Shown: positions 14,767 through 47,247 of the stretch, piece by piece
How positions within the stretch are numbered: the stretch's first letter is position 1
How the letters are laid out: each line of letters starts with the position of its first letter
NCBI RefSeq assembly: GCF_003260995.1
Contig: NZ_CP030040.1
Span: 742,578 to 806,577, forward strand
Direction of reading: 5' to 3'
From: Acetobacterium sp. KB-1
GTDB lineage: Bacteria > Bacillota > Clostridia > Eubacteriales > Eubacteriaceae
DNA length: 64,000 bases
Made by a program: the position numbers and the translations under genes
Notes under the pieces: generated by a model
The model's input: the letters and a program-made list of their open reading frames with translations, nothing else
Database searches by the model: none
Told to the model about the DNA's origin: nothing

Positions 14767-14772
14767 GAATAA

Positions 14773-14801
14773 ATTATAACCGATGGTTTGGCATAATTCA
14801 A
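14773..14801 (-). promoter_or_regulatory. Strong promoter for the MarR gene, predicting leaderless mRNA
   Basis: Minus strand TTGAAT, exact 17-bp spacer, TATAAT, then only six bases before ATG 14766. The start site should fall at the ATG. The -35 box overlaps the methyltransferase stop codon. Confidence 0.7.
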
Positions 14802-15457: not shown

Positions 15458-15480
15458 TTTTTTCCTCTTTCATTAATTCT

Positions 15481-16251
15481 CTAATCCACTACCGTAAAGG
15501 CTTTTTTCTGGTTGTTCAGCCCCGGAATGGTATAAATTTTTGCATTTACTTCAAAATAGTCTTTGATATTTGCTTCAGTAATCATTTCGTGACTCGGTCC
15601 AAATCCATACTGACCTTTTCCCAGCAGCAAGGTATCATCTGAAATCCGTAAGGCGTGTTCAGGATAATGGGTATTGATGATACAGGAGATCCCCTGTTCG
15701 TCTTTGAGCCGCTGGATCAGTTTTAAAACCAAAAACTGGTTTTTGAAATCGAGATGGGATTCCGGCTCATCCATAATCAGAATTTTCGGTTCGTTAGCCA
15801 ATGCTCTGGCAATATAAACCAGTTGTAATTGTCCCCCACTTAATTGAGAACAAAGTTGATCTTTGAAATCGATGATGCCGACTATGGACAACGCCTCCAG
15901 TACCTTTTCCCGGTCCAGCTTTGAAGGCATCCCAAAGATCGACACATGACGGCTTCGTCCCATGGTGACCATATCAAAAACCGAAAAAGCGAAAACAGTT
16001 TTATGCGCCTGAGGAACATAGCCAATCCCATCACGATCCAGCATTGAGGTAAACACCTGGCCATCAACCCGGGTTTCGCCTTCCTGCCACTTGAGCAGGC
16101 CCATCATGCATTTCAGCAAGGTAGTTTTGCCAATCCCATTTTGCCCCAGGATAGTCATAATCCGCCCTTGTGCAAGTTCAAAACTAATTTGCGAAAGCAC
16201 CTTATTTTCCGGATGATAGCCATAGCTACCCTTAATTACTGCCAGTTGCAT
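15481..16251 (-). CDS. BtuD/FepC-type ABC transporter ATPase (cluster 1)
   Basis: 256 residues. Walker A GQNGIGKTTLL, signature LSGGQLQLVYIARAL, Walker B ILIMDEPESHLDF and switch His NTHYPEHAL are intact. It is the ATPase of a type II importer for metal chelates (iron-siderophore, haem or cobalamin family), on the cytoplasmic membrane face. It starts 1 nt after the permease stop with GAGGGG as ribosome site. The cobalamin riboswitch upstream of the operon favours a corrinoid or related tetrapyrrole as substrate. Confidence 0.88.
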   Translation of the reverse strand: MQLAVIKGSYGYHPENKVLSQISFELAQGRIMTILGQNGIGKTTLLKCMMGLLKWQEGETRVDGQVFTSMLDRDGIGYVPQAHKTVFAFSVFDMVTMGRSRHVSIFGMPSKLDREKVLEALSIVGIIDFKDQLCSQLSGGQLQLVYIARALANEPKILIMDEPESHLDFKNQFLVLKLIQRLKDEQGISCIINTHYPEHALRISDDTLLLGKGQYGFGPSHEMITEANIKDYFEVNAKIYTIPGLNNQKKAFTVVD

Positions 16252-16252
16252 C

Positions 16253-17263
16253 TCAACACCCCTCTGTTTTCTTGTAAACCAGCGCGAAAAAAGGCGCTCC
16301 GATAATGGCTGTCAGAATTCCAATGGGGATTTCAGAGGGGGTTAAAACCCGGGCAATAAAATCCACTGTCAATAAAAATACCGCGCCACATAAACAGGAT
16401 GCCGGCATCAGATATTTATGGTCTGAGCCAACAATCATTCTGCACAAATTTGGAATAATCAGGCCTACCCAACCGACGATGCCCGCTACCACCACCGACG
16501 ATGCCGTAATAATGGTAGCCGCGGCAATAATGATCATACGTGTTTTTCCGGGGTTGATCCCCAAGGTTTTGGCTTCTTCATCCCCCAATGTTAAAACGTT
16601 TATCCGCCATCGAACAGCGATTAATACCCCAATGCCAACCAAAATCGGTACAATGATTTTACCAAGGTCTTCAAAGGTCGTGTTTGAAAAGCTTCCCATT
16701 AGCCAGAAGGTAATCGCCGGCAACTGAGAATCGGTATCAGCCACAAATTTGACCAGCGAAATCAGGGCGTTAAACACGGCCGAAACAATGATCCCGGATA
16801 AGACCAGCGCTAAAATTGAGGATTCGTTTTTTAACCGCGAAAGAAGTAGGCTTACTACTACACTTAAAAGCCCAAAAGCAAAAGCCATCGCAGCCGTAAC
16901 CCCGGTGGTAACCCCATTAGTCCAAAGAATTCCCAGGGCGGCACCAAAACCGGCCCCGGCACTAACCCCCAATACATCAGGGCTGACCAGAGGATTATGA
17001 AAACAGCCCTGAAAAGCCGCCCCGCTGACAGACAAACCAGCGCCCACCAGAATAACTATAAAAAGCCGCGGTAGCCGAATGTCAAGTACTACCGTTTTAT
17101 CAACACTATCAAGAGGACTGCCTAACAGTCCGGACCAGAGCAGCTTTAAAACATGCTCCGGCTCGACATAATACCGACCTAAAAATAGTGAAGCAAAAGA
17201 AAAAACGATTAGTAACCCCAAAAGCAATACTATAAATGTGTTATTCCTGGTGATTGGTTTCAT
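16253..17263 (-). CDS. BtuC/FecD-type ABC permease (cluster 1)
   Basis: 336 residues with about ten hydrophobic segments and the family signature FHNPLVSPDVLGVSAGAGFGAALGI. Further landmarks are the coupling-loop region LGDEEAKTLGINPGKTR and the C-terminal EIPIGILTAIIGAPFFALVYKK. It is the membrane half of a metal-chelate importer and lies 7 nt after the binding-protein gene. Substrate type (siderophore, haem or corrinoid) is not encoded in an obvious motif; see the riboswitch. Confidence 0.88.
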   Translation of the reverse strand: MKPITRNNTFIVLLLGLLIVFSFASLFLGRYYVEPEHVLKLLWSGLLGSPLDSVDKTVVLDIRLPRLFIVILVGAGLSVSGAAFQGCFHNPLVSPDVLGVSAGAGFGAALGILWTNGVTTGVTAAMAFAFGLLSVVVSLLLSRLKNESSILALVLSGIIVSAVFNALISLVKFVADTDSQLPAITFWLMGSFSNTTFEDLGKIIVPILVGIGVLIAVRWRINVLTLGDEEAKTLGINPGKTRMIIIAAATIITASSVVVAGIVGWVGLIIPNLCRMIVGSDHKYLMPASCLCGAVFLLTVDFIARVLTPSEIPIGILTAIIGAPFFALVYKKTEGC

Positions 17264-17270
17264 TGAAATC

Positions 17271-18371
17271 TTACTTACCGCTACCAGGAATCAAGATAGA
17301 CTGGATCATTTCGTCACTGAGTTTAATTTCATAACGGCGCTCATAAAACTCCTTCAGAATCGTTTGATATTCATTGTCTGACAGTTTTTCGGGAAAGTTT
17401 TTGCTGACCAGCCATTGAATCATCAGCGGTGAGTCAGCACAAGGAGTACCCCAGTTCATAATCCCCACCGGAGTATTATAGATTTTACCGTCTTTGAAAG
17501 CCTGAATCTGAGACCAGTCCTGGCCGGCAATCGAACCTGATAAATACTGATCTGCCGGTAATCCCCGAAAAACATAGACAATATCAGGGTTCCAGGCTAG
17601 CAGTTGTTCCATGGTTACTTCAATGTTTTCACCGCTTAGCTCAGCCGCAGCATTAACCAATCCACTTTTCACTAACCAGTCATCCCCATAAGTACCGGCA
17701 CCACGAACAGTAATCTTATCTCCGGTGTTACTCATAATCATCAGACCTTTTTGTTTTTCGACACTGCCGATTTCAGCAAGAATGGTATCGACCTTTTTAT
17801 TGGCGATATCCCATTCCTGTTGTAGCGAATTGTCATCTTCCAAACCAAAAATTTCCCGCATCAACTGATCAATCTGGACCGACCAGTCTTCGTTAACCTG
17901 ATTCTTTATAAAAAAGTCCACCACGGGGACCTGAATCGTCTCCAGACCTTTTTTTTGGGTATCTCCATAGACTAAAATAATATCCGGATCAAGCTTTAGA
18001 AGTTCTTCGGCATTAGATTCATAGGCAGATGATACAAAGGTCGTGTTGATTTCTTTATTATTGGGAACAAAGTAATCCAATAAAACTTTATTCATTTCGG
18101 TCAGCGCGATCGCACTGACACCAACGATATTGTCGGTACTCAATCCGTTGCTGACATAGGTGGATAACAGCGGTGGCGCAATGATCACCACATTTTTGAT
18201 TTCTGCCACGGCTGGCAGGGTGACTGTTTTTCCAGCCAGATCGGTAATCGTTCGCTCTGATTTTGAAGCCTCACTGGTTTCATCTTTTTTTGTTTCGCCA
18301 CAGCCCGCTAACAGACTGACCATCAGCAAACACATACTGATAATTAAGACACGTTTTAATCTGTTTTTCAT
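17271..18371 (-). CDS. BtuF/FhuD-type substrate-binding lipoprotein (cluster 1)
   Basis: 366 residues with a lipoprotein signal (MVSLLAGCGETKK; lipidated Cys in LLAGC). A Peripla_BP_2 fold follows: RTITDLAGKTVTLPA, then NAEELLKLDPDIILVYG, and a C-lobe with VTMEQLLAWNPDIVYVF. The C-lobe motif GTPCADSPLMIQWL carries Cys311, which is also present in the cluster 2 homologue (APCVETPLMIKWM) and could be an axial metal ligand. It captures a metal complex outside the membrane for the adjacent permease/ATPase. It follows the NifK-like gene by 30 nt. Confidence 0.87.
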   Translation of the reverse strand: MKNRLKRVLIISMCLLMVSLLAGCGETKKDETSEASKSERTITDLAGKTVTLPAVAEIKNVVIIAPPLLSTYVSNGLSTDNIVGVSAIALTEMNKVLLDYFVPNNKEINTTFVSSAYESNAEELLKLDPDIILVYGDTQKKGLETIQVPVVDFFIKNQVNEDWSVQIDQLMREIFGLEDDNSLQQEWDIANKKVDTILAEIGSVEKQKGLMIMSNTGDKITVRGAGTYGDDWLVKSGLVNAAAELSGENIEVTMEQLLAWNPDIVYVFRGLPADQYLSGSIAGQDWSQIQAFKDGKIYNTPVGIMNWGTPCADSPLMIQWLVSKNFPEKLSDNEYQTILKEFYERRYEIKLSDEMIQSILIPGSGK

Positions 18372-18401: not shown

Positions 18402-19574
18402 TTATTTAGTTAGTTTGTTCAGCAGATAGGCCGCTCCACGAAAACCCATTAAACCCGGCTGATCTTCAGTGAACCCGGCAATTTTGGGATGGGCAACCTG
18501 AATCCGATCCACGCTCGGCAGGTCTCTGATTTGCAACCCATCTGCCAGAACCAGAACGTCCTGATGACTTCTGAGTTTTTCATAGGCCGACTGACTGATC
18601 ACCGACAACTCGGTGGAACGGGAGCACCAACTGCTCTTTAGAAAATATACTTCAAGATTCAGCTCGTCTTTAAAAAACTCAGCTAAACCCCGGACGCTAT
18701 CTTCATGGCCACAAAGTACGATGGTTTTTCCCGAATTCTTTTGAATGACCTGTTCCTTGGCTATTTTCAGTGCTGTTACGGCCTGATGAACGGCGGCATA
18801 ATCGGCCTTCTGGTTAATAACACGTTCAATCTTCTGCAGCCAGGCCCGGGTTCCTACCAACCCGTAAGGCCGGCCATCAACATAGGGAATCTCGAACCGC
18901 TGCTGCAGATCTTGTGCGAGCGCCAGTCCCTCCTGCCGGAGCACCAGATTTACCACCGCCTGCCCGATATTTCTGCAACTGGCGACACTGGTGTTTCCGG
19001 AAAGGTTGCAATTAAGTTCCATAGCAAAACACTTTGCCATCATGTCTTTAATTTCAGCGGCTTCGGCCAGATGATTGTATTCATCGGCACAGCAGCCGAT
19101 GATGTTAAACCGATTCTTTTTAGGCCGATTTTTAATGGCTATCTGACCCAGTAAACGCAATGCCGTTTCAATCCCCACGGTCCAGTCGTTTTTCAGACCA
19201 CCTCCTTTAATTGTTATCAGTTTGGCGTCAATGTGCGGTTTGATTTCATGGCAGATGCCATCAAGATCCACCCCGATCACCGCGGCCACTGATGAATCCA
19301 GAACCACAATCACTTCGGGGTGAAGGCGCTGATCAATTTCCATCAAGACCTGATTGAGCCGGTCATAGTTACCAAACACCACGACATCCTCATCCATTGT
19401 GGTGGTGTAAAAGCTGGCCTGCGCCGCATTCCCGAATTCTTTTAACGATTCCAGCAAATAGCGGGTCGTGCCCTCCGGCCCGAACTCCACAATCACCAGC
19501 TCCCTGACGCCGCTGAGGGCCCACAGCAAACCCATCCGTTCCGATGGGACGGGATAATTGTTAGAAAGATACAT
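18402..19574 (-). CDS. Nitrogenase-like component 1, NifK/E/BchB-type subunit without cluster cysteines (cluster 1)
   Basis: ATG 19574 is chosen because GGGAGG lies 8-9 nt upstream; it overlaps the preceding gene by 14 nt. It is 390 residues. The fold is recognised from EFGPEGTTRYLLESL (family HGP.GC region), TTTMDEDVVVFGNYDRL, VIVVLDSSVAAVIGVDLDGI (family SxCxxxIIGDD region) and FNIIGCCADEYNHLAEAAEIKDMM. Where nitrogenase beta subunits carry P-cluster Cys, this protein has Thr, Ser and Ser; the first Cys is in GVDLDGIC. It probably forms a heterotetramer with the next-door D-like subunit. The substrate is unknown. Confidence 0.82.
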   Translation of the reverse strand: MYLSNNYPVPSERMGLLWALSGVRELVIVEFGPEGTTRYLLESLKEFGNAAQASFYTTTMDEDVVVFGNYDRLNQVLMEIDQRLHPEVIVVLDSSVAAVIGVDLDGICHEIKPHIDAKLITIKGGGLKNDWTVGIETALRLLGQIAIKNRPKKNRFNIIGCCADEYNHLAEAAEIKDMMAKCFAMELNCNLSGNTSVASCRNIGQAVVNLVLRQEGLALAQDLQQRFEIPYVDGRPYGLVGTRAWLQKIERVINQKADYAAVHQAVTALKIAKEQVIQKNSGKTIVLCGHEDSVRGLAEFFKDELNLEVYFLKSSWCSRSTELSVISQSAYEKLRSHQDVLVLADGLQIRDLPSVDRIQVAHPKIAGFTEDQPGLMGFRGAAYLLNKLTK

Positions 19575-20850
19575 CCGGTGCACCTCCCGCTAAAACTGAT
19601 TTGACCGCCGCCAGTGCCCAGGTGATCGCTTCATAGCCAATTTTTCCCGGTGGCACGAGTCGTTCCAGGTGCAAGATTCCCAATTGTTTTAAATAATCCA
19701 CCGGTCCAAAACCAATGTATAAATCCGGTAAAAGTTCCGGCATCAGACTGACTGCCGCATTGGGATTGGCTACGTAATTCACATAGGGATCCCAACCCTG
19801 ATCGAGAATCCGATCAATCTGCTCCTGACTGTTATCCGTGAGCCGATAGGCGTTAATCAGCAGTGGCACCATTCCCAGGGAGGTCAGAAATGCCGCCGCT
19901 TCAAAGGCATCCGGCGGCCGACCACCATTGACAAAGCTTTTTCCGGCCAGCACCTGCCGCGCCTCTTGCAGCTGCGAAACGGCGTTTTGATGAGCTTTTT
20001 CAATTATTTTTTGAATCGAGATACCCAAATGTCCTGCCAGCTGCTGGTAACCTGATCGGATCTTATCCAGCTCAAAAGAGGGTTCAAAGAAAACGTAGGG
20101 AGTGCCAAACTGGTCTTCCAAGGCCATTGCCAGTTCCCGACCGACCTCGCTGGTGACGATATTCAGGGCCGCCGCCGGGGCGCTCTGAAGGGCTTCAATG
20201 TTACAGGGTTCCGGAATGATCAGATGAAGCGTAATCCCGTTTTGCGTAAGCAGTCCCAGCAGTTCCGAATCCTTCAGAGAGCCTTCGATTCCGGCATGAA
20301 AATTTCGTCCCAACAGATTAACCGTTCCCGGTTTGACCGTTTGCGGTTTCATCAGCCGGACCATTGCTTTCATGGTCTGGGACACCGCCACCCCAAATTC
20401 ATTGCAGTTTCGGTCATAATGGGCCACATGAATGGGCAGAATCGGAATGCCACATTCCTTTTCGGCGGCTTGACTAATGGCTTCCAGATCTTCACCGATA
20501 ATTTCAGGAATGCAGGTGCTGACTAAAAAAATACAACGGATCCGGGGATCTTTGGCGATCTGCAGCAAGGCTGTCAGGATGCCATCGCGACTGCCAAAAA
20601 TAATATCGGTGTCTTCAAAGACACCGGCAAAAAACCGCTCGTAGCCCGGTTCTTCACTGTGGTAGATGCAGCTGTTTCGGGCATACCAGGTGCATTCAGC
20701 CGTTCCGACGACCAGGACAGCCGCTTCTCTGATCAGCGGCGCTGCTACGGCCACCCCGAAGGTTGGACAAAAAACCCCACATGAAATAGCCACCGACGCC
20801 CCATAAATATCCTTATTATGGTTAATTTCTGACAGTCTGTTTAAACGCAT
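19561..20850 (-). CDS. Nitrogenase-like component 1, NifD/N/BchN-type catalytic subunit (cluster 1)
   Basis: 429 residues; ATG 20850 follows GGGAGG and overlaps the NifH-like gene by 10 nt. Conserved Cys occur at 24 and 28 ([12 protein letters not shown]), 53 ([10 protein letters not shown]) and 113 ([17 protein letters not shown]). C28, C53 and C113 fit the positions of the Fe-S ligands of the NifD/BchN family. [16 protein letters not shown] is the usual following block. With the cysteine-free K-like subunit this would give a [4Fe-4S] site carried mainly by one chain, as in protochlorophyllide reductase. It should accept electrons from the NifH-like protein; the substrate is unknown, possibly a tetrapyrrole. 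Confidence 0.83.
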
Positions 20851-21620
20851 GCTGCTGCCCTCCCGGCGGTTTTTTCACAGTCAAACAATTTATCCGCCAG
20901 CGCCGCATAGGATCGCGCCTGAGGGCTTTCCGGAAAGGCCTCAATCACGGTTTGATGTAAGGCTTCGGCCTGTTGCACCAGTGGATCGCGTTCAATCGTG
21001 TGGAGAATTGCGGTGTCAATTTCCCGGGCGGACTGAGCAACAATAGCCGCTTCATTGACAATCCCCTTCTTATTGAGGATCAGCCCCTTCAGACTGGCAT
21101 ATCCCCGGGAACCAAAAGATCGCACCGCAGCAGCAATATTATCGGCGGCATAAAGCGACATGCTTTCTCCCGAAGTCACAATGCAAACGCTGTCGGCATA
21201 GCCATTACGGATCGGCATGGCAAAACCGCCACAGACCACATCTCCCAACACATCGTAAATGACGACATCCGGGTTATAAACATCATTGGCTTTCAATTCA
21301 GCCAGTTTTTCAAAGGCCGCAATAATTCCCCGACCGGCACAGCCGATTCCAGGTTTTGGTCCACCAGCTTCGACACAGAGGACCCCGCCACTGCCAGTAA
21401 ATACAAGATCAGAAAGTCTCGTAGCTATATCCTTATCCCGAATCACTTCCAGCACTGTCGGGATGCGTTTTCCGCCAGTCAGGTTGATGGTTGAATCTGA
21501 TTTAGGATCACACCCGATCTGCATCACTGTTAACCCTTTTTGGGCCAAAGCCGCGGAAAGATTGGACACCGTGGTTGATTTTCCAATTCCCCCTTTACCA
21601 TAAATCGCTATTCTTTCCAA
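20841..21620 (-). CDS. NifH/BchL-like ATP-dependent iron-protein reductase (cluster 1)
   Basis: 259 residues, TTG start after GGAGGTAAATT. P-loop [11 protein letters not shown], the DPKSDST switch I region, and the two Cys that bridge the [4Fe-4S] cluster of the dimer are present ([18 protein letters not shown]). It should be a homodimeric ATPase delivering low-potential electrons to the D/K-like component. No nifE, nifN, nifB or nifV genes occur nearby, so N2 fixation is unlikely. It is the first gene behind the cobalamin riboswitch. Confidence 0.9.
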
Positions 21621-21645
21621 AATTTACCTCCATTTTTTCCTAAAT

Positions 21646-21680
21646 AAAAAAACCGCAGTTATCATAATGACAACTGCAGC
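21646..21680 (-). terminator. Terminator forming the expression platform of riboswitch 1
   Basis: Minus-strand CTGCAGTTGTCAT pairs with ATGATAACTGCGG and is followed by seven T. It lies between the aptamer and the NifH-like gene, so cobalamin binding most likely turns the operon off. Confidence 0.85.
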
Positions 21681-21774
21681 TCCGTATTTATGCTGAATTT
21701 AAAATACAAAGAAATGGCATCGCTACGCCTTTCTTTGTTCTTCACCTATTCTGTAATCACGCAGAATAAAAGAA

Positions 21775-21935
21775 TATCCACACAGGCAGGTTTTCTGACT
21801 CAAGCGTCTTCATTTTTCCTACCTTCCCAAATGATCAGTGGTATTCCTGGAAAAACTCCTCTTATACAGCGGCGGTACCGTACAGGATTTTCACCTGTTT
21901 CCCTATTATGCCGGCATTGCTATGCCAGCCACCTC
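21775..21935 (-). promoter_or_regulatory. Cobalamin (AdoCbl-class) riboswitch, cluster 1
   Basis: On the minus strand the conserved parts appear in order: GGGAAACAGGTGAAAATCC, ACGGTACCGCCGCTGT, CCACTG, GGGAAGG and the B12 box AGTCAGAAAACCTGCCTG. It is followed by a terminator and the NifH-like gene. This is a clear classical cobalamin aptamer. Confidence 0.93.
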
Positions 21936-21959
21936 TATTTCTGATTTAATTGTATGCCT

Positions 21960-21988
21960 AGTATACAACTAACCAGTTACCGCGTCAA
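21960..21988 (-). promoter_or_regulatory. Promoter of nitrogenase-like operon 1
   Basis: Minus strand TTGACG, 17 bp, TATACT, just upstream of the riboswitch aptamer. Together with it this fills the 21621-22058 gap. Confidence 0.8.
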
Positions 21989-22058
21989 GTCTTTTATTTA
22001 GTCTCAACAAACATTTCTGATGCCGATTTTACGACAATATCGCCGATATCTTGCAGGG

Positions 22059-23192
22059 TTAACGTTTATAAAAGGCGACAATTTCTGCGACCACCCGCTC
22101 CAGCTCTGGCTCCGAAAGGCTAAAGTATAATGGCAGCCGCAGCAACCGCAGGCTTTCGTTGCTGGTAAAGCGGTCGGCACCGTGAAAGCGTCCGAATTTC
22201 TGGCCGCCGGGGGTTTCATGGAGGGGGGTATAGTGAAAGGCGGTACAGATCTGATGCTGCTTGAGCCAGTGAATCAGATCGTTCCGTTCCTGCTGACTGG
22301 CGGTTTTGATATAAAACAGATGACCATTATGCTGGCAGTGTTCCGGCACTACCGGCAGCTCAATATAGCCAGCCGCAACCAGCGGTTTTAACCGTTCATA
22401 ATAGTGCTGCCACAGGTTCAGCCGCTGCCGGTTAACCATTTCGGCGGCTTCCAGCTGAGCCAGAAGATGAGCCGCGTTGAGTTCGCTGGGTAAATAGGAG
22501 GAACCCAGATCGACCCAGGAATATTTGTCCACCCGGCCCGCCAGAAAATCATGGCGGTTGGTGCCCTTGTCGCGGATAATTGTGGCCTGCTCGATTAGAT
22601 CCTCGCGATTAATCAGTAGGGCGCCACCTTCCCCCATGGTGTAGTTTTTGGTTTCATGGAAGCTGTAACAGCCCAGATCTCCGATGCTTCCCAGGGCTTT
22701 ATTTCTGTAGCTGGCCATCACACCTTGCGCCGCATCCTCCACCACCAACAGATCGTGGCGTCTGGCAATAGCCATAATCGCATCCATCTCGCAGCCAATG
22801 CCACCGTAATGGACCGGCACCATCACCTTCGTGCGGGACGTGATAGCGGCTTCAATCAGGGTTTCGTCAATGTTTAAGGTATCCGGCCGGATATCAACAA
22901 AGACAATGGTGGCACCGCGCAGGGCAAAGGCATTGGCGGTGGTCACAAAGGTGAAGGCCGGCATGATCACCTCATCTCCGGGCTTGATGCCGGCCAGCAG
23001 GGCCGTCATTTCCAGAGCCGCGGTGCCGGAGTTCGTTAAAAAAGCCCCGGGGATCTGGGCGTTTTGACACAACCAGTCCGAACAGGCTTTCGTAAAAGGG
23101 CCATCCCCACCAATCTGATGATTTTTAGTGATGGCCGCTTTTATATATTTTATTTCGGTTCCCAAATAAAGGGGCATATTAAATGGTATCAT
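22059..23192 (-). CDS. wecE: dTDP-4-amino-4,6-dideoxygalactose transaminase (DegT/DnrJ family)
   Basis: 377 residues from ATG 23192 (MIPFNMPLYLG), with AGAGG 8 nt upstream; the E. coli enzyme starts at the same point with MIPFN. PLP-binding Lys is in SFHETKNYTMGEGG. Other family blocks are TFVTTANAFALRGATIVFVD, PVHYGGIGCEMD, VEDAAQGVMASY, DKGTNRHDF and LRLLRLPLYFSL. It should aminate dTDP-4-keto-6-deoxyglucose to the 4-amino sugar used in surface polysaccharides. It is the last gene of the sulfur/sulfonate operon, 55 nt after the ATPase. That location is unusual, since no other dTDP-sugar gene is in the window. Confidence 0.88.
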   Translation of the reverse strand: MIPFNMPLYLGTEIKYIKAAITKNHQIGGDGPFTKACSDWLCQNAQIPGAFLTNSGTAALEMTALLAGIKPGDEVIMPAFTFVTTANAFALRGATIVFVDIRPDTLNIDETLIEAAITSRTKVMVPVHYGGIGCEMDAIMAIARRHDLLVVEDAAQGVMASYRNKALGSIGDLGCYSFHETKNYTMGEGGALLINREDLIEQATIIRDKGTNRHDFLAGRVDKYSWVDLGSSYLPSELNAAHLLAQLEAAEMVNRQRLNLWQHYYERLKPLVAAGYIELPVVPEHCQHNGHLFYIKTASQQERNDLIHWLKQHQICTAFHYTPLHETPGGQKFGRFHGADRFTSNESLRLLRLPLYFSLSEPELERVVAEIVAFYKR

Positions 23193-23247: not shown

Positions 23248-24018
23248 TTAAACGTCAATCAAATCCAGGATTTCTTCTTTCAGGGCCAAATAGCTTGCAT
23301 CCACTTGAACCCGTCCGGTGCGTTTATCAACCCGGTCACAAAAATCGACGGTAAATTCCTGAATAATGGTGCCGGGACTTTTGGACATCACCAGCAGGCG
23401 GGTGCCCAGCGACAGGGCTTCGTCCACATCATGGGTGATCATAAAAATGGTGTTCTGATCATCCTTCCAGATTTTTCGCACCAGTTGCTGCATATGAATC
23501 CGGGTCAGTGCATCCAAAGCGCCAAAGGGTTCATCCAGTAGCAGAATCGCTGGCTCATTGGCCAGTGCCCGGGCCAGCGCCACCCGCTGTTTCATCCCCC
23601 CGGACAGTTGAAAGGGCGGCTGATCGGCCACCTCCAGCAGATGCACCTGGGTCAGATAATGGTTGGCAATCCGGGTGATCTCGTCTTTGGGAAGCCCTTT
23701 TATTTTAGGGCCAAACTCGACATTTTTACGGACACTCATCCAGGGATAAAGAGACGCCGACTGAAAAACCACACCCCGTTGACGGTCCGGCCCTGAAACC
23801 GGCTGACCCTGCATTAAAAAGGTGCCCTCACTCGGCAGGGTAAACCCGGCAATAACATTAAGCAGGGTGCTTTTTCCGCAACCCGAAGGTCCCAAGACAC
23901 AGATGAAATCATGCTGATTGATCTTCAGATTTACCCCATCCAGGGCGCGGACGGGTTCGTTTTCGTTGGGGTAATCCACGGTTAAATTGTCAATTTCGAT
24001 AATCAGCTCGTTTTTCAT
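23248..24018 (-). CDS. Sulfonate/taurine/nitrate-type ABC ATPase (set 1)
   Basis: 256 residues with Walker A GPSGCGKSTLL, Q-loop FQSASLYPWMSV, signature LSGGMKQRVALARAL, Walker B ILLLDEPFGALD and H-loop ITHDVDEAL. It is typical of SsuB/TauB/NrtD ATPases. ATG follows AAGGATGG. It is the third gene of a permease, binding protein, ATPase set in an operon of sulfur-metabolism genes, which favours an organosulfur substrate. Confidence 0.88.
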   Translation of the reverse strand: MKNELIIEIDNLTVDYPNENEPVRALDGVNLKINQHDFICVLGPSGCGKSTLLNVIAGFTLPSEGTFLMQGQPVSGPDRQRGVVFQSASLYPWMSVRKNVEFGPKIKGLPKDEITRIANHYLTQVHLLEVADQPPFQLSGGMKQRVALARALANEPAILLLDEPFGALDALTRIHMQQLVRKIWKDDQNTIFMITHDVDEALSLGTRLLVMSKSPGTIIQEFTVDFCDRVDKRTGRVQVDASYLALKEEILDLIDV

Positions 24019-24030
24019 CTTAATCCATCC

Positions 24031-25074
24031 TTATTCTAATGACATCTCAATATACGTTGAATTAATAAAAGCGTCAAATTCTTCCTGGCTTGGTGAATTG
24101 TCAATGGATTTCTGGCTTTGCAGAAAATCCGCAGTATCTTTCATGATTTTAGAAAAATTCCCGGGCTTACCGACAGACCCCATATAATCTGATCCCAGTT
24201 GTTCCTCCGGCGTCAGCCAGATTGAACCGGTCATCTGCATCAAAGCATTTTCGGCGGTGATACCCAGTTCAGCCGCTACACTTTCGGCCGCTTCCTGCGG
24301 ATTGCTGCGGTAAAGATCTCCACCTTCACTGAGGCCTTTTACAAAACCGGCGACCAGATCCGGATAGTTTTTAGAAAATTCTTTTCGAACCAGACAGACA
24401 TTAGCTGTGACATAGCCTTTTTTTGCCATCTCTGCACTGTTAACCAGGATGCTGCCATTTTTTTCGAGATCACCGAGGGTGGGTTGCCAGGTATAAGCAG
24501 CGTTAATATCACCCCGCTCCCAGGCGGCCACAATTTCCGATGTTTGCATGTCAAGCAGTTGCACCTGATCTTTTATGCCAGCTTCTTTTAAATAATTAAG
24601 CAGACTATAATGAGCGGTACTGGCAAAAGGGGTGGCAATCTTCTGACCGACCAGGTCTTCTGGTTTAGTGATATTAGAGCCATTCTTCACCGCCAGACCT
24701 TCGATTTCCCCCAGCACCTCATGAATCCAGATCAGTTCCACATCAATACCCCTGGACAAAGCAATAATCCCATTGGTGTTTCCCATGGTGGCAAAGTCGA
24801 TACTGCCAGAAGCCAGGGCCTTGTTGGCATCTACGCCAGAGTCAAAAACGATAAACTCATAGGGTACACCCAGTTCATTAAAATAAGCGTCAAAGATATC
24901 GCGTGTCTTACTCACCGTCTCATCATTGGGTACCCGCAGATAACCGATATTCACTTTCTTTGGTAAGGCGCCCCCATCATTCTGACTTTGACAGCCGCTA
25001 AACAGCCCTGCCACTACAACCATAATTACCAGCACTGCCAGCACCCAGACCTTATTCTTTATTACTCTTTTCAT
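24031..25074 (-). CDS. TauA/SsuA-type substrate-binding lipoprotein (set 1)
   Basis: 347 residues; lipobox in VAGLFSGCQSQ; ATG after AGGAGG. The mature domain begins KVNIGYLRVPND and contains DFATMGNTNGIIALSRGIDVELIWI, EGLAVKNGSNITKPEDLVGQ and WERGDINAAYTWQPTLGDLE, as in taurine/sulfonate receptors. It binds a small ligand outside the membrane for the adjacent permease. An aliphatic sulfonate is the likely ligand by family and context; the exact ligand is unknown. Confidence 0.87.
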   Translation of the reverse strand: MKRVIKNKVWVLAVLVIMVVVAGLFSGCQSQNDGGALPKKVNIGYLRVPNDETVSKTRDIFDAYFNELGVPYEFIVFDSGVDANKALASGSIDFATMGNTNGIIALSRGIDVELIWIHEVLGEIEGLAVKNGSNITKPEDLVGQKIATPFASTAHYSLLNYLKEAGIKDQVQLLDMQTSEIVAAWERGDINAAYTWQPTLGDLEKNGSILVNSAEMAKKGYVTANVCLVRKEFSKNYPDLVAGFVKGLSEGGDLYRSNPQEAAESVAAELGITAENALMQMTGSIWLTPEEQLGSDYMGSVGKPGNFSKIMKDTADFLQSQKSIDNSPSQEEFDAFINSTYIEMSLE

Positions 25075-25085
25075 TTCCTAACCTC

Positions 25086-25871: not shown

Positions 25872-25922
25872 GCGTCCTCCTGATTTCTGGGCCTTTAGCC
25901 TGTTGTTTATTTAAGTCTTATC

Positions 25923-27620: not shown

Positions 27621-27683
27621 TTGTCTTCTCCTTATATGTAGATTTTTTGCATTTACAACGTTCTATGTTTTTCTGCCAAGCTA

Positions 27684-28040: not shown

Positions 28041-28088
28041 TTAAGTAGAATAATACCGATATTTCGCAAGGAACCGGGATCATTTAAG
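27960..28088. repeat. Three exact tandem copies of a 43-bp unit inside the YeeE/YedE gene
   Basis: Copies occupy 27960-28002, 28003-28045 and 28046-28088 with no differences. The unit contains TAGAATAATACCGATATTTC. Two extra units add 86 bp, which shifts the frame by two. It has no spacers, so it is not CRISPR. Confidence 0.95.
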
Positions 28089-29059: not shown

Positions 29060-29135
29060 AACTTTACCTCCTATTAGGTTAAAACAAACATGAAGTGGCA
29101 AGATGCCACTTCATATTTAGTATCTGAATGATCAA

Positions 29136-30074: not shown

Positions 30075-30091
30075 TTCTTTTCCTCCAGATC

Positions 30092-35730: not shown

Positions 35731-35768
35731 CGTTTTTCCGTCCTTTATTTTTAATTTTATCGATATCA

Positions 35769-40541: not shown

Positions 40542-41315
40542 CTAAGCACCAGCCGTGCAGATATTGCGATTGAGCTGGTTGGAGTAAAATAGATGGACCG
40601 GTTCATTGTAGAGACGACTTAACAAATCTTCTGATAAATACTGATCCACCACTCCGATTTCAAAGGTTCCCGAGCGATTGAGCACCCCGACTCGTCCGCC
40701 AATAAAAAACACCTGATCCGGATTGTGAGTTGTCATAATAACACCATAACCCTGATCCGACAATTTTTTAACCAGTTTCATGGTTTTAATCTGATTCCCG
40801 AAATCCAGATGGGCGGTGGGTTCATCCAGTAAAATAAAGTCCGGCTCCTGGGCAATGGCTCTGGCAATAGTCACCAGCTGTCGTTCCCCACCGCTTAACT
40901 GCGTATAGGCTTTGTTCCGGAGATCGGTGATCCTGACCAATTCCATGGCTTCTTCAATCATCCGCTGATCCTGCAGACTCAGTTTTTTAAAGGCACTTAA
41001 ATAGGGGGTTCTGCCCATGGCAACAAATTCTTCAACGGTAAAGGCATAGGTCGGCTGGTGAATCTGGGGCACATAGCCAATCCGCATAGCGAATTGGCGC
41101 AGCGACAGATCTTTAATATTGTCTTTTTCTAAAAAGATCCCTCCTTGTGTTGGCTCACTCAGATTGCCGATGCAGTTCAGCAAGGTCGATTTACCGGCAC
41201 CGTTGGGACCCAAAATGGTAAATATTTCACCCTTTTTCAGACTGAAATTGACCTCTGTAAATATCTGATTGCCGTTAGGATAGGCAAACCCCAGTTCAAC
41301 GATCCTTAAATTCAT
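40542..41315 (-). CDS. BtuD/FepC-type ABC ATPase (cluster 2)
   Basis: 257 residues; Walker A GPNGAGKSTLL, signature LSGGERQLVTIARAI, Walker B FILLDEPTAHLDFG, switch TTHNPDQV. Its ATG overlaps the permease stop by 4 nt. It powers the metal-chelate importer of nitrogenase-like cluster 2. Gene order matches cluster 1, but no methyltransferase follows. Confidence 0.88.
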   Translation of the reverse strand: MNLRIVELGFAYPNGNQIFTEVNFSLKKGEIFTILGPNGAGKSTLLNCIGNLSEPTQGGIFLEKDNIKDLSLRQFAMRIGYVPQIHQPTYAFTVEEFVAMGRTPYLSAFKKLSLQDQRMIEEAMELVRITDLRNKAYTQLSGGERQLVTIARAIAQEPDFILLDEPTAHLDFGNQIKTMKLVKKLSDQGYGVIMTTHNPDQVFFIGGRVGVLNRSGTFEIGVVDQYLSEDLLSRLYNEPVHLFYSNQLNRNICTAGA

Positions 41316-42385: not shown

Positions 42386-43474
42386 TTAACTGTTGGCATC
42401 GACTTTCAAAATCGTATCAATATTTTCATCGGTCAGATCGGCAGAAAAGAACGCTTTATAAAAGGCTTTCAGATCTTTACGGATATCATAATCTTTAAAT
42501 AGTTCCGGCTGTTGAATACTGCCCATCCACTTAATCATCAGAGGTGTTTCAACACAAGGGGCATCATAACGATAAATTCCCATCGGGGTTTTGTAAACCC
42601 GATGGTTTTTAACCGCATCGATATTGCTCCAATCCTGACCTTCAATTTTATTCTGATACAGATCTTCCGGTACGATTTCGTCAAAATTTGACAGATAGAT
42701 GATCTCCGGATTCCACTGAAGGATTTGCTCCATATTTACTTCTGACCATTGTTTATCCAGTCCGGCAGCGACATTCGCACCACCGGTTAACTCTAACAGA
42801 TAATTATTGATGTTTTTTGCTCCTGCCACGCTAAGTTTGCTATTACGTAAATACATTACTTTCTTTTTTGAAACACTGTCAAGTTCAGCTTTCTTGTCAA
42901 TAAAATAATTTTCTATCTCGGTGTGATAAGCCGTCAGTTTTTCAGCTTCATCTTCTTTTCCCAAAACCTGACCAACCAGCAGTAAATCCTTTTTTAAGTC
43001 TTCCAGATTTTCCGCATAATTCAGCATTACCGGGGTAATTCCCACCGCTTTTAATTGTTCGGCTTCAGCCGTCTGATCGTTCCAAATAAAGGCAATTTCT
43101 GGCTTTAAATTCATTAACGCTTCCACATTGATGGTAAAGTCTTTGGTAATTTCAGCCGTTGAAATAGTGGCAAAAGCCGGATCAAGGGTGGGCATAAAAC
43201 TGGTTTTGTACGCAGCCATCGCGCTGGGATTAATCGATACAATCCGCTGACTGCCACCATCAATGGCCCACATTGCCGACGCCCAGGGAATCGGGGTAAT
43301 GGCAACCTTGGTGATGGTTTCCGGTAATTGCACCTCATTACCACCCTGATCTACCACCGATGTCAGTTTTTCGGCGGTTTTACTTTCCGACTCCTTTGCC
43401 TGACTGCTGCAACCGGCAATGGCGATACACATAATCAGACCGATACAGATAACTAGTAACATTCTTTTTTTCAT
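42386..43474 (-). CDS. BtuF/FhuD-type substrate-binding lipoprotein (cluster 2)
   Basis: 362 residues; lipobox in CIAIAGCSSQ. The Peripla_BP_2 fold shows TSVVDQGGNEVQLPETITKV, NVEALMNLKPEIAFIW and VNMEQILQWNPEIIYLSNF. Cys307 in YDAPCVETPLMIKWMG matches Cys311 of the cluster 1 protein in sequence context and distance from the C-terminus. It captures the metal complex for the adjacent permease. Confidence 0.87.
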   Translation of the reverse strand: MKKRMLLVICIGLIMCIAIAGCSSQAKESESKTAEKLTSVVDQGGNEVQLPETITKVAITPIPWASAMWAIDGGSQRIVSINPSAMAAYKTSFMPTLDPAFATISTAEITKDFTINVEALMNLKPEIAFIWNDQTAEAEQLKAVGITPVMLNYAENLEDLKKDLLLVGQVLGKEDEAEKLTAYHTEIENYFIDKKAELDSVSKKKVMYLRNSKLSVAGAKNINNYLLELTGGANVAAGLDKQWSEVNMEQILQWNPEIIYLSNFDEIVPEDLYQNKIEGQDWSNIDAVKNHRVYKTPMGIYRYDAPCVETPLMIKWMGSIQQPELFKDYDIRKDLKAFYKAFFSADLTDENIDTILKVDANS

Positions 43475-43508: not shown

Positions 43509-45095
43509 TTAAGCCGTTACTTCATTTGCAAAGAAACGCTTTAAATAAGCGTAGCCTGTTTGTCCCATATATTGATAATCCAGCTCGATAAACGCGTTAC
43601 CGCTAAGGCTGGGATAGGGCATGGGAATAAATTTATATGATATCGTGTTGATTCTATTTTGATAAAGCGGATCCGCAATGACATGGGTAACGGTCATTTG
43701 CGATAATTCCTGATCCGTAATTTTATTTGCCCGGATGGTTATAATCCCAAAATCATTTGGGATCGCTGTCTCAAGCCGATCCAGAATTTCATTTTCGCCC
43801 AGCAGCAGCACCCGGAAAGCCGGGCATGGCTGCGGCTCTTTATTTAAGTAATACGATTCCGGGATCACTGTTTTTAATAACGTACCGACGGCTCTCAGCC
43901 ACTGATTAAAGCCGTCAATGCCGATCGGCATTGCAAAATGATAGGGTATTTCAAACATCTCCGCCATCCATTTTGCCAAACACAGACCGTGTCTGGAAAA
44001 AACAAGATTCAGCTCAGCTTCTGCTGCCGTTTTAAAGGAACCCAGACTCTCATAGCCGAGAAAGTTCACCGCATAACCCAGCGACGTCAGGCAGGTTTCA
44101 ATTTCATCAAAGTGTTGCCTTTTCCCAAACAAAAATGGATTATAGCCAATAATATTGAGCCGTTTTTTTCGGTTTTCAACTTTTTTTAACGTTGCTTTGG
44201 CGATTTTTAACAAGGCCTTTGCTACCCCTTCTTCGGCCGTCTGAAAACCGTTGGTATCTATTGCACAGGTCATTTCAAATAGATCACAGGTCTGTAAAAA
44301 ATGATCATTCATCCCGGTCATAAAGGTAACCGGTGTGCCAATGGATAGAAATAATTTTATATCTTTGGTTTGATGATTCATTTGAAAGCGCTTTGTAATG
44401 GCTTCACCGATCTCATTTGTGCAGCCATTAACCGCCTGCAAGTCATTAAATCGGGAAAAAATAAACGGATTGTGATTCAGTTTATCAATGGAACTAGGAC
44501 AGTTTGCACAGCCGGAGCCCGTCATTAAAAACTGACAAACGGCCTCATCATCGGGGAATAAAGAAAGTACCCCCGTATAATCTGCGGCCAGCGGCGGTAA
44601 TTCACAAACCGCTGCATTTTTTGATAAAACCAGTGGCCGGGTCTTGACAAAGTCCGCAATTTTTGTTGCAATCTTATCCAAACGTTGGGATGGACTGGTT
44701 TTTCGTTTCTCCATGGGACCACGCTTGAAAATCTCGACAGGTATCTGATGGGGATTATCAAGTCCCTCGATCATCGTATCAAAATCGGTTTGGCTGAGCA
44801 AATCGGGACATGAAACATAAAGAATAATACCCTGATAGCAGGCTTTTCGTAACGCCGCTTCAACAACGCCTTTGATTTTTTCCAGATAATCCCCAAAGGT
44901 ATAATCCAATGCACGAATGGGAACGAGTTTGAGCTTGGACAACTGCCCACATTCCAAAGCCCTAAAATATAAAATACGGATACAAGTTGGCGGTCCGACG
45001 GCCACGACTAAGGTTTCCGGTATCGCAAAAATTCGTTTCGCCATTTCCATATCACCTAAATTATAGATCGACGTTTCAATGGTGATGCTACTCAT
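43509..45095 (-). CDS. Fused single-chain nitrogenase-like component 1 (cluster 2)
   Basis: 528 residues; ATG overlaps the NifH-like stop (ATGA). The N-terminal ~130 residues look like a shortened NifD/K front end: VAVGPPTCIRILYFRALECG (C38, C49) and LYVSCPDLLSQTDF (C96). A second, fuller NifD/K-like unit follows from about 155: AAVCELPPLAADYTGVLSLF (C164), FLMTGSGCANCP (C196, C199), NDLQAVNGC (C225) and a Rossmann part KKRLNIIGYNPFLFGK. No separate K gene exists in this cluster. It is probably a dimer accepting electrons from the adjacent NifH-like protein. Domain boundaries are my estimate. Confidence 0.72.
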   Translation of the reverse strand: MSSITIETSIYNLGDMEMAKRIFAIPETLVVAVGPPTCIRILYFRALECGQLSKLKLVPIRALDYTFGDYLEKIKGVVEAALRKACYQGIILYVSCPDLLSQTDFDTMIEGLDNPHQIPVEIFKRGPMEKRKTSPSQRLDKIATKIADFVKTRPLVLSKNAAVCELPPLAADYTGVLSLFPDDEAVCQFLMTGSGCANCPSSIDKLNHNPFIFSRFNDLQAVNGCTNEIGEAITKRFQMNHQTKDIKLFLSIGTPVTFMTGMNDHFLQTCDLFEMTCAIDTNGFQTAEEGVAKALLKIAKATLKKVENRKKRLNIIGYNPFLFGKRQHFDEIETCLTSLGYAVNFLGYESLGSFKTAAEAELNLVFSRHGLCLAKWMAEMFEIPYHFAMPIGIDGFNQWLRAVGTLLKTVIPESYYLNKEPQPCPAFRVLLLGENEILDRLETAIPNDFGIITIRANKITDQELSQMTVTHVIADPLYQNRINTISYKFIPMPYPSLSGNAFIELDYQYMGQTGYAYLKRFFANEVTA

Positions 45096-45934
45096 CTGCT
45101 GATTTCCTGGTTCTTTGCGGAAACAAAATCAAAGAGGGCTTCCATTGCGTCGTCATCAAGGGGACGAGAGTCACTGGCAGGAACTTCGCAAAACAGATCC
45201 TTCCCCAAGGTCTTAATTACCTGTGAAAGGGGGGCCTGGGGATCGGCCTCAATCATGGTATTTCTTTGATACTCGGCCAGCTTGATCGCCTGGTTTTGTT
45301 CAATAGAGGCTATCAGACGGCTTTCGGTCATTTTGATAAAATGATCAACCACATCTTTATCGGTTTGGGACGAGTAGCGATTATGAATAAAGCCGCCAAA
45401 TAGTTTTTTCTTCGGGGTTTCGTAGTGCGCGATACCCTTTAAAATATTATTGGCAGCGTACAACGACATAAATTCTGATGAGGTCACAATATAAACCGCA
45501 TCAACACATTGCTTGCGCATGGGGATGGAAAAACCACCACAGACCACATCACCCAGCACATCATAGACAATCAGATCCCAGTCCATCGCAAAGACTTCCA
45601 GCTTTTCCAGGGTCTCGATCACCGCCGAAATGCCCATCCCGGCACAACCGACCCCCGGTTCCGGGCCGCCAGCTTCAACGCAAGTAACGCCATAAACTCC
45701 TTTATATAAAATATCTGCTTTATTCAGCTGATCTCCTTTTTCCTTGAGTGTTTTCAAGACGGTGGGAATCCGTCGCTTCATCAGAATCCGGGTCGAATCC
45801 GATTTCGGGTCACAGCCGATATGGAGAACCTTTTTCCCAGCTTTTGAAAGCGCTGCCGATACATTGGCGGCAATCGTCGATTTACCAATCCCTCCCTTGC
45901 CATAAAATGCGATCCGTTTTAGTTTTATCTTCAT
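45092..45934 (-). CDS. NifH/BchL-like ATP-dependent iron-protein reductase (cluster 2)
   Basis: 280 residues, ATG after GGAGGAAAA. P-loop [18 protein letters not shown], and cluster-bridging Cys in GVGCAGMG and DVVCGGFSIP are intact. It is clearly paralogous to the cluster 1 protein but has a longer C-terminal tail (DSRPLDDDAMEALFDF). It is the first gene behind the second riboswitch. Confidence 0.9.
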   Translation of the reverse strand: MKIKLKRIAFYGKGGIGKSTIAANVSAALSKAGKKVLHIGCDPKSDSTRILMKRRIPTVLKTLKEKGDQLNKADILYKGVYGVTCVEAGGPEPGVGCAGMGISAVIETLEKLEVFAMDWDLIVYDVLGDVVCGGFSIPMRKQCVDAVYIVTSSEFMSLYAANNILKGIAHYETPKKKLFGGFIHNRYSSQTDKDVVDHFIKMTESRLIASIEQNQAIKLAEYQRNTMIEADPQAPLSQVIKTLGKDLFCEVPASDSRPLDDDAMEALFDFVSAKNQEISR

Positions 45935-45944: not shown

Positions 45945-45981
45945 ATAAAAAAACTCTTCTGAATTATTAGACAGAAGAGTT
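45945..45981 (-). terminator. Terminator forming the expression platform of riboswitch 2
   Basis: Minus strand AACTCTTCTG and CAGAAGAGTT form a perfect 10-bp stem followed by TTTTTTT, just upstream of the NifH-like start. It is arranged like the one in cluster 1. Confidence 0.9.
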
Positions 45982-46039
45982 TATTATAAAAATAAATCCC
46001 TCACCCAATAATCCGTTAGGCTTGGTTATCACAAAATAT

Positions 46040-46180
46040 AGAAGCATCCTGGCTTAAGATCATCGCCTGCTGTAACAACTTCCCAGAAATTTCTTTCCAG
46101 TGTTGATCAATTTACAGCGGCTCACTTTTACAGTGGCGGTACCGCATCGGACTTTAACCGATTTTCATACTACACTTTGT
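46040..46180 (-). promoter_or_regulatory. Variant cobalamin riboswitch, cluster 2
   Basis: Minus strand carries GAAAATCGGTTAAAGTCC, GCGGTACCGCCACTGT, CACTGGAAAG...CTGGGAAG and TTAAGCCAGGATGC, in the order of a cobalamin aptamer. The B12 box keeps only its first part (AGCCAGGA), and the GTGAAAATCC block reads GGTTAAAGTCC. The altered box may change ligand choice. Confidence 0.8.
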
Positions 46181-46196
46181 TATTCAATTAAGTCGT

Positions 46197-46225
46197 ATTA
46201 TATCACAAGAAAGAGGAGCAAACAA
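46197..46225 (-). promoter_or_regulatory. Promoter of nitrogenase-like operon 2
   Basis: Minus strand TTGTTT, 17 bp, TATAAT, directly before the riboswitch. Confidence 0.75.
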
Positions 46226-46305: not shown

Positions 46306-47247
46306 ATGATTTCACTACAAAATATGAAATATATGATCGAAATTTCAAGGCATCAATCAATTTCGGCGGCGGCTAAGGCCCTCTATATTTCCCAATCCAC
46401 TTTATCCACTGCAATCAAAGAAGTCGAACAGAGTCTCGGAATTCTCCTGTTCAAGCGAAACAGCCGTGGGATTGAATTAACTTATGAAGGACAAGATTAT
46501 CTAAACCATGCCAGAGATATCGTTGAGCAAGCCGACTATCTGGAACGACGTTATCAGCATCAGAAATCGATCCCGATGCGCTTTTCTGTCTCCACCCAGC
46601 GACTGCCCTTTTCGACCATGTCTTTTATCAAAATCGTTGATGAAATCGGCTTGGATCGCTATGATATTGCCATTCGGGAATGTCCAACCCATGAGGTCAT
46701 CCACGACGTGGCCACCCGTCGCAGCGAAATCGGGGTTATGTGCATTAATGATCATTACCTGAATACGATGCAAAAACTTTTAGATACCAGCAATCTCTCC
46801 TTTCATATTCTGGGAAAAATCAAATCCTATGTTTTTATAAGAAAACTACATCCCCTCGCTAAGAAAGAATTGCTAACCCTTGATGACTTAAAACCATACC
46901 CTTTTGTCACCTATGATCAGGGTGATGACAATCTGCTTCATTTTTCTGAAGAAATTTTATTTAATGAAATCCTGGATAAAAACATTCATGTCATTGACCG
47001 TTGCACAAAAATCGCCCTGGTTCGTGGCACTGATTGTTTTAGCATCGGTCCAGATCTGACTAACAGCGATGGCGATAAGATGCACTCAAAACTAAATGAG
47101 ATTCAGACGATCGAGTTTTGCGAAAGTGATCAAATTTTACACGCGGGTTATATTATGCGCAGGGAACATACCTTAAGTGATATTGGAATACGCTATATTA
47201 CGACTTTAAAAGCGAAAATCAATGGACTAGAATGCAATTCTTACTGA
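46306..47247 (+). CDS. LysR-family regulator divergent from nitrogenase-like cluster 2
   Basis: 313 residues, ATG after AAGGAGG. Winged helix: SISAAAKALYISQSTLSTAIKEVEQSLG, with KRNSRGIELTYEG following. The ligand domain (about 90-305) has RFSVSTQRLPFSTMSFIKIV. Divergent placement next to the riboswitch operon suggests a second control layer on cluster 2. Ligand unknown. Confidence 0.88.
   Translation: MISLQNMKYMIEISRHQSISAAAKALYISQSTLSTAIKEVEQSLGILLFKRNSRGIELTYEGQDYLNHARDIVEQADYLERRYQHQKSIPMRFSVSTQRLPFSTMSFIKIVDEIGLDRYDIAIRECPTHEVIHDVATRRSEIGVMCINDHYLNTMQKLLDTSNLSFHILGKIKSYVFIRKLHPLAKKELLTLDDLKPYPFVTYDQGDDNLLHFSEEILFNEILDKNIHVIDRCTKIALVRGTDCFSIGPDLTNSDGDKMHSKLNEIQTIEFCESDQILHAGYIMRREHTLSDIGIRYITTLKAKINGLECNSY

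Follow-up and report, generated by a model that had tools for sequence, protein, structure and literature searches.

Two cobalamin-riboswitch-led operons in Acetobacterium sp. KB-1 pair a nitrogenase-like reductase with a FecCD-type importer and may import and reduce a cobalt complex

We analysed a 64,000-nucleotide stretch of Acetobacterium sp. KB-1 (contig NZ_CP030040.1, positions 742,578 to 806,577), here called the window, whose numbering is used for all coordinates given without a locus name. Two separate gene clusters in the window each carry a nitrogenase-like reductase, made up of a NifH-like ATPase (H) and component-1-type proteins (D and K), together with an ATP-binding cassette (ABC) importer consisting of a substrate-binding lipoprotein (F), a FecCD permease (C) and an ATPase (A). 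Both are preceded by a cobalamin riboswitch aptamer and an intrinsic terminator. Because B12 control extends to two separate reductase-importer sets, cobalt supply in some form is suggested as the best explanation. We put at roughly 0.47 the probability that the two operons are B12-repressed modules that import a cobalt complex, either a corrinoid or a smaller chelate, and reduce it.

Cluster 1 lies on the minus strand. Its aptamer (21951-21768) matched RF00174 over the full length at 101.4 bits, compared to a gathering score of 31.5, and the terminator (21683-21649) has a 16-pair stem followed by a T-run, so that these two elements of the original prediction were recovered. The fold of the leader had a z of -5.06. 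The proposed promoter, TTGACG-17-TATACT at 21988-21960, agrees with the consensus at 10 of 12 positions, which is weak evidence, since a scan of 21400-22100 on both strands found 2 sigma-70-like sites where shuffled sequences led us to expect 1.6. Behind the leader the gene order is H-D-K-F-C-A-methyltransferase. H (20841-21620, TTG start) matched Pfam Fer4_NifH at 298 bits and contains the P-loop GKGGIGKST and both cluster-cysteine motifs known from this family. D (19561-20850) and K (18402-19583, GTG start) matched Oxidored_nitro at 177 and 171 bits, respectively. F (17271-18371) matched Peripla_BP_2 at 59 bits, C (16253-17263) FecCD at 308 bits and A (15481-16251) ABC_tran at 107 bits, and the last gene (14798-15457) was assigned by Pfam to the class I S-adenosylmethionine (SAM) methyltransferases. 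The genes are as tightly packed as first described, with overlaps of 10 nt (H/D) and 23 nt (D/K) and gaps of 30 nt (K-F), 7 nt (F-C), 1 nt (C-A) and 23 nt (A-methyltransferase). The interval 18402-21988 that had been given for the whole cluster needs correction, as it runs from the promoter to K only, with the importer and methyltransferase genes at 14798-18371.

The second set occupies 40542-46212, also on the minus strand. Its aptamer (46023..46212; RF00174, 63.4 bits against a gathering score of 31.5) and the terminator found by terminator analysis (45946..45982) precede H2 (45092..45934), a NifH/CfbC-like ATPase by Pfam and NCBIfam models. H2 is followed by DK2 (43509..45095), a 528-aa protein with a K-like C-terminal part and an N-terminal part without a Pfam assignment. 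The importer genes are F2 (42386..43474; 332 bits to 4ovk), C2 (41312..42349), which falls in the HI1471 (MolB) lineage in a permease tree, and A2 (40542..41315), assigned by profile match.

To examine conservation, copies of both clusters were sought in 61 genomes, the window's own included. A close copy of cluster 1 was present in one other genome, which we take to be A. woodii (locus L066; D 65% identical). There the aptamer is kept, the terminator stem differs in one pair altered on both sides and in three altered on a single side, and a relative of the methyltransferase (273 bits) again follows A. A third copy (L093; D 55% identical) lies on a contig of 3.2 kb that extends 82 nt upstream of the H frame; these 82 nt contain the conserved terminator, and the position of the aptamer falls beyond the contig. 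This contig is filed under a Bacteroidales metagenome-assembled genome and is possibly misbinned. The aptamer stands ahead of H in 2/2 complete cluster-1 loci, with a terminator in each. Cluster 2 was found in seven of the 61 genomes, four in the window's genus (its own included) and three in another genus of the family, and 7/7 of these loci have the aptamer ahead of H2 together with the terminator. The B12-repressible architecture that had been predicted is thus present at both clusters and kept in their orthologues, and the switch is restricted to two genera of one family, the window's and one more. The genome has 16 cobalamin aptamers above the gathering score in 3.99 Mb, giving a chance expectation of ~0.0008 per gene for an aptamer within 400 nt on the correct strand. 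Local chance was rejected as the source of the association with H, given the conservation of the aptamers at orthologous loci. Elsewhere in this genome, cobalamin aptamers precede genes assigned by Pfam to FecCD import, CbiZ and CobN as well as open reading frames (ORFs) read as cbi/cob, and both clusters therefore look like part of a corrinoid regulon.

To place the reductase, a tree of D and K was built with 103 of 107 rows (quick method, with support from the Shimodaira-Hasegawa-like approximate likelihood ratio test, SH-aLRT); four N-terminal DK2 pieces were left out. The D of cluster 1 grouped with those of L066 and L093 (100) inside a branch A of 32 rows (98), representing 31 of 92 loci and the window, and was joined by branch B (100). 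K likewise fell in a branch A of 32 rows (98), which was joined by branch B and DK2 (95); DK2, through its C-terminal part, grouped with branch-B K (100). Cluster 1 D-K hence belong to branch A and cluster 2 to branch B, and both are under a cobalamin switch. In line with the original prediction, D and K are set apart from the Nif, Anf, Mar, Bch and Cfb rows that served as reference clades. With respect to Bch and Cfb this separation is to be read with their long branches in mind, the Bch rows coming from a single species. As Mar references, two pairs were chosen that share 78 and 79% identity with PDB 9d9u over a stretch of it, and one of these pairs adjoins an ORF read as cysteine synthase.

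Cys28, Cys53 and Cys113 of D occupy the cluster-cysteine columns of NifD/BchN and are present in 32/32 branch-A rows. In the cluster-1 K, S14, T39 and S98 stand at the P-cluster columns, without a cysteine. Thr39 aligns with Asp36 of BchB and with a cysteine of NifK, and this column holds Thr in 22/32 and His in 10/32 branch-A rows and Cys in 9/9 branch-B rows. The column of the iron-molybdenum (FeMo)-cofactor cysteine is empty in all 32 branch-A and nine branch-B rows, as in BchN and BchY. Because three cysteines are found in D and no FeMo-cofactor cysteine, the pattern fits a predicted reductase that has a single 4Fe-4S cluster and does without a metal cofactor. Membership of the nitrogenases (NifDK/VnfDK/AnfDK) was rejected on the missing FeMo-cofactor cysteine and the restriction of P-cluster cysteines to D, and membership of MarHDK on the same empty column and the separation from MarD and MarK. 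The earlier statement that nif cofactor genes are absent is correct for the window but not for the genome, where, near 3.23 Mb of contig C1, four strong matches to PF00148 and a NifH-like ORF were interpreted as nifH, D, K, E and a gene of N type.

Among characterised enzymes, the dark-operative protochlorophyllide oxidoreductase (DPOR) is one of the closest. DPOR (BchL-BchN-BchB) also combines a NifH-type ATPase with a two-subunit acceptor and, like chlorophyllide oxidoreductase (COR), has three cysteines in its N/Y-type subunit, here D, and no FeMo-cofactor cysteine. The fourth ligand is Asp in BchB or Cys in BchZ, in contrast to Thr39 in K, and the clusters differ from DPOR by having an importer and a B12 aptamer, with no chlorophyll genes noticed in the window. 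A structural model of D (mean predicted local distance difference test, pLDDT, 86.7) matched DPOR chains best (9buo_D, Z 30.4, root-mean-square deviation (rmsd) 4.2, 388 aligned) in a tie with nitrogenase-type chains, so that the search gave no clear preference between DPOR and nitrogenase (Z 26-30). The CfbC model was the best match of H, and a reductase with tetrapyrrole chemistry recalls CfbCD, the Ni-sirohydrochlorin a,c-diamide reductive cyclase. However, H scored 330.1 against a cut-off of 402, and D and K scored 23.8 and 37.1 with the CfbD model against 268.4. CfbD is a single subunit. The methylthio-alkane reductase MarHDK shares the nitrogenase-like H-D-K composition in anaerobes, but the Mar rows hold the FeMo-cofactor cysteine and cysteines at two of the three K columns.

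The same gene association was surveyed in relatives. At E 1e-20, D had matches in 13/391 genomes of the class, its own included, and within the genus the search returned mostly lower-scoring nitrogenase-type matches. A one-genome-per-species scan gave 152 relatives, the best 80 of which are, judged by title, nearly all from Firmicutes. Neighbours were counted in the 53 complete loci of these best 80 of 152, the 27/80 incomplete loci being excluded; as they were called by similarity to a few chosen proteins, the counts are lower bounds and depend on the score limits. H and K were present in 53/53, C in 49/53, F in 48/53 and A in 46/53, and H, C, A, D and K occurred together in 46/53, a retention of the importer that we count in favour of an import-and-reduce function. 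The usual branch-A order is H-F-C-A-D-K, compared to H-D-K-F-C-A in the window, and an AraC-type gene was nearby in 28/53. Branch B comprises H-D-K sets mostly reached via DK2, several of which are ordered H-D-K-F-C-A like the window.

Against the background of the known mechanisms of DPOR, nitrogenase and CfbD, we propose the following sequence of events. When corrinoid is plentiful, the leader RNA would bind it and transcription would end at the terminator ahead of H, the aptamer acting as an OFF switch. Under scarcity, F-C-A would import a cobalt complex, which may be a corrinoid or, as the lineage of the importer would have it, a smaller chelate. H, with ATP and its 4Fe-4S cluster, would pass low-potential electrons singly to D-K, where a single 4Fe-4S cluster may sit on the three D cysteines and where, for want of a FeMo-cofactor ligand, the cofactor cavity would be empty. 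By analogy with protochlorophyllide in DPOR, the substrate itself may occupy this cavity. Reduction of Co(III) or Co(II) would then free the upper ligand, allow adenosylation or labilise the metal, and the cobalt or corrinoid would enter the B12 pool. In the O-demethylases of anaerobes, ATP drives the reduction of the corrinoid protein's Co(II)/Co(I) couple, for which a potential of -530 mV was measured (in the part of PMC6739815 drawn on here); for this reason an ATP-driven electron pump would be chemically apt.

A number of observations weigh against this proposal. The activating enzymes of O-demethylases already perform the Co(I) job, according to the same part of PMC6739815. Outside the cluster orthologues, no aptamer leading H was seen at any of the 76 branch-A loci whose sequence includes H and 400 nt or more upstream (0/76), in a survey of 91 partly redundant loci (the same genome appears twice in L067/L098, L069/L113 and L072/L167), 15 of which lack H or 400 nt ahead of it; weak aptamers may have escaped the R1 covariance model, which has just 14 base pairs and a short calibration. 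Among the branch-B relatives with the same importer type, likewise, no aptamer was found at H. The expectation that relatives would keep riboswitch and importer alike therefore held for the importer only. Links to heme are partial, with a BilS-like flavodoxin gene in 21/53 complete loci, a HugZ-like gene in 3/53 and either in 24/53. The branch-B locus L205 lies beside MoeA and DUF364, pointing to metals over corrinoids. Finally, judged by sequence and by the structural matches of F, the importer is nearer to the MolABC/nickel-binding lineage than to BtuFCD.

This last point bears on which cobalt complex would be carried. The cluster-1 permease scored 266 bits with HI1471 of H. influenzae, 174 and 165 with hemin permeases and 137 with BtuC. 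In a tree with 13 branch-A main-type permeases and 4 PDB references, in which branches are long, it joined C2, HI1471 and the permeases of branch B (100/97), and BtuC, the hemin permeases and the importers of branch A fell elsewhere. HI1471 and HI1472 are MolB and MolA, and MolABC (HI1470-1472) is a FecCD-type importer that includes the closest permease. Since the tree positions of D-K and of this permease differ, cluster 1 combines a branch-A D-K with a branch-B-type importer. BtuFCD is also a FecCD-type ABC importer, and NCBIfam BtuC models were the two best matches of the cluster-1 permease, yet the scores were 230.1 against a cut-off of 461 and 201.5 against 334. F of cluster 1 had no match to the BtuF models of NCBIfam at E 0.001, and F2 reached 51.3 bits against a cut-off of 234. 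The plain label of BtuFCD, offered at first as a sign of corrinoid transport, was rejected on these missed cut-offs and the grouping with HI1471. A model of the cluster-1 F (pLDDT 81.5) matched 4ovk best (Z 33.5, rmsd 3.0, 317 aligned), then 4hn9 and HI1472 (3psa; Z 28.7, rmsd 2.6, 300 aligned), and HP1561 with nickel-histidine (4ls3) at Z 27.5 (rmsd 2.6, 294 aligned); heme proteins ranked below these four. A BtuF entry was absent among the 50 structural matches listed for this protein, which does not exclude BtuF. By sequence and structure, 4ovk is nearer than HI1472 to both binding proteins, and 4hn9 is also nearer to F2.

Of the earlier idea that an imported corrinoid or tetrapyrrole is reduced or salvaged, the B12-repressible reductase-importer remains and the corrinoid now shares its place with a smaller cobalt chelate. 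Taken separately, a corrinoid substrate is somewhat unlikely. The importer would take up incomplete, cyano- or alkyl-corrinoids, and H-D-K would reduce the cobalt or the corrin ring, leading to adenosylation and salvage. Aptamer control of both clusters, the DPOR-like ligand pattern with an empty cofactor site and the branch-A relatives with IsdE-like and HugZ-like genes argue for it; the HI1471 lineage of the importer, the missing BtuF match and the best structural matches of F (4ovk, 4hn9 and HI1472) argue against it. The other half of the favoured reading, in which a small cobalt complex is taken up to feed de novo B12 synthesis and H-D-K turns substitution-inert Co(III) into labile Co(II), is unlikely when taken alone. 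The HI1471 lineage of both permeases and the resemblance of F to HI1472/MolA and to HP1561 with nickel-histidine argue for it, and aptamer control would suit cobalt supply. Ordinary reductases are enough for most Co(III) chelates, however, and no candidate chelate or chelator gene presented itself.

Branch A as a whole leans towards heme, without proof. In locus L096, F scored 269 bits with the heme receptor model IsdE (cut-off 298.65), and branch-A matches to HugZ reached 131 and 137 bits (cut-off 240) and those to BilS-like flavodoxin 78 and 90 bits (cut-off 155), so that all the named heme-linked matches fall below curated cut-offs. A heme-binding flavodoxin of Fusobacterium reduces a heme breakdown product (part of PMC10404700), and relatives with such genes hint at tetrapyrroles. 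Use of heme or another iron complex by the window's clusters, placed under B12 control for the economy of tetrapyrroles, would follow from the position of the cluster-1 D and K alongside these loci. We consider it improbable, because cluster 1 has no such neighbours, its importer is of the HI1471 lineage and not of the branch-A type, and a B12 aptamer would be an odd iron sensor. A branch-A operon H-F-C-A-D-K with an AraC-type gene was seen in two Clostridioides difficile assemblies (L095 and L097).

Branch B suggests a different role, in which D-K would handle metal without reducing the import, as a scaffold or metallochaperone in the assembly of a molybdenum, tungsten or other cofactor. The HI1470-72 (MolABC) lineage of the importer supports this, as do branch-B loci by MoeA and DUF364 (L205) or by HypF/D/E-like ORFs (L178 and L180), and a 2012 paper suggested that metal transport may be coupled to the assembly of cofactors (part of PMC3464626). 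It would leave cobalamin control in two separate branches unexplained and is judged quite improbable. In the window's genus, L205:119-19099 contains three HI1471-lineage importers, three DUF364/DUF4213 proteins, MoeA, a radical SAM protein and an H-D-K set; no aptamer was found in this locus. L178:3-10068 and L180:1176-10998 have H-D-K sets by ORFs read as HypF/HypD/HypE-like, with extra D- or K-like ORFs. A link to Hyp genes is mentioned in the portion of Dos Santos 2012 (PMC3464626) used here.

Between the two clusters, 23248-39105 forms a sulfur-looking island with taurine/sulfonate-type ABC importers (substrate-binding protein (SBP) 214 bits to the taurine model, cut-off 304), YedE/TsuA-like membrane proteins below cut-offs and ORFs read as rhodanese-like. 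That the reductase spares B12 by serving as a B12-independent substitute, such as a MarHDK-like thioether or sulfonate reductase, is very unlikely: cobalamin riboswitches also precede the B12-independent metE (part of PMC9600662) and the taurine/sulfonate-like import genes lie in the window (below cut-offs), but D and K fall outside the Mar rows, whose FeMo-cofactor cysteine they lack, and a FecCD importer would be unexpected as a thioether carrier. Regulator genes flank both clusters. A MarR-type gene lies at 14317-14829 on the minus strand (FabT model, 57 bits against a cut-off of 200), and a divergent LysR-type gene at 46306..47247 on the plus strand, with a similar divergent ORF at the other 6 orthologous cluster-2 loci.

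Other aptamers were seen near related genes. L192:1600-5692 has an aptamer-led SAM methyltransferase with a FecCD importer, so that a methyltransferase stands beside B12-switched importers twice in the genome. L200:1599-19501 has two cobalamin aptamers, the second of which leads FecCD-type genes, CbiZ, a 1249-aa CobN-type protein and ORFs read as SBP and chelatase-type ATPases. In the upstream survey, several candidates were excluded from the count: the L101 aptamer is oriented opposite to its H-D-K operon, that of L176 heads a separate FecCD set ~9 kb from the D-K pair, and matches in L183, L219 and L220 were weak (E 0.04-0.5). A 16-bit match (E 0.6) ~750 nt upstream of H in L094 was taken as chance, and an Rfam scan of L067-L079 returned tRNAs only. 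In Phascolarctobacterium faecium (L112:1918-15510) an aptamer stands at the head of a TonB-receptor/SBP gene set whose end lies 165 nt upstream of H, which is suggestive at most. The order there is aptamer, TonB receptor, ORF read as TIM-barrel, SBP and H-F-C-A-D-K, continuing with an ORF read as ChaN-like and a second TonB receptor; the receptor scores are mixed between heme and B12. No aptamer was found in the other two Phascolarctobacterium/Acidaminococcaceae loci (L137 and L139).

Related genes have been described before. Dos Santos 2012 (PMC3464626, in the part used here) reported a clostridial NifEN-like group with three P-cluster cysteines in the E-like and no conserved cysteine in the N-like protein, and with adjacent NifH and ABC ATPase genes. 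Cluster 1 resembles this group in cysteine pattern and neighbours and may belong to it; a riboswitch and a methyltransferase do not appear in that part of the paper. Ideas of an importer and of cobalamin reduction for related genes were in print in 2012 in the same paper. In Dehalobacter, operon-2 has a cobalamin riboswitch and terminator before a fepB-type importer gene, with syntenic genes in A. woodii (part of PMC4285132); it shares the B12-riboswitch operon with an importer but, as described there, has no nitrogenase-like enzyme, the term 'nif' being absent from that text. No report linking a cobalamin riboswitch to nitrogenase-like genes was among the papers listed by searches of open-licence PubMed Central.

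Tentatively, the two clusters may represent a new class in the nitrogenase superfamily, ATP-driven reductases of imported cobalt complexes that were drawn from two branches into the B12-riboswitch regulon. At the same tentative level, the wider group may provide a general anaerobic route for metal complexes, heme included, in which import is followed by reduction. A large uncharacterised nitrogenase-like group gains in B12 status its first clear physiological signal. One copy sits in the apparent A. woodii genome, and since this acetogen is tractable, the supply or withdrawal of a single vitamin offers a test of function. Should the substrate be a cobalt complex, nitrogenase-type chemistry would extend to cofactor salvage, and the heme-linked relatives would bear on how gut Clostridia might obtain iron from heme without oxygen. 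Proof of such a substrate would make this a new enzyme class.

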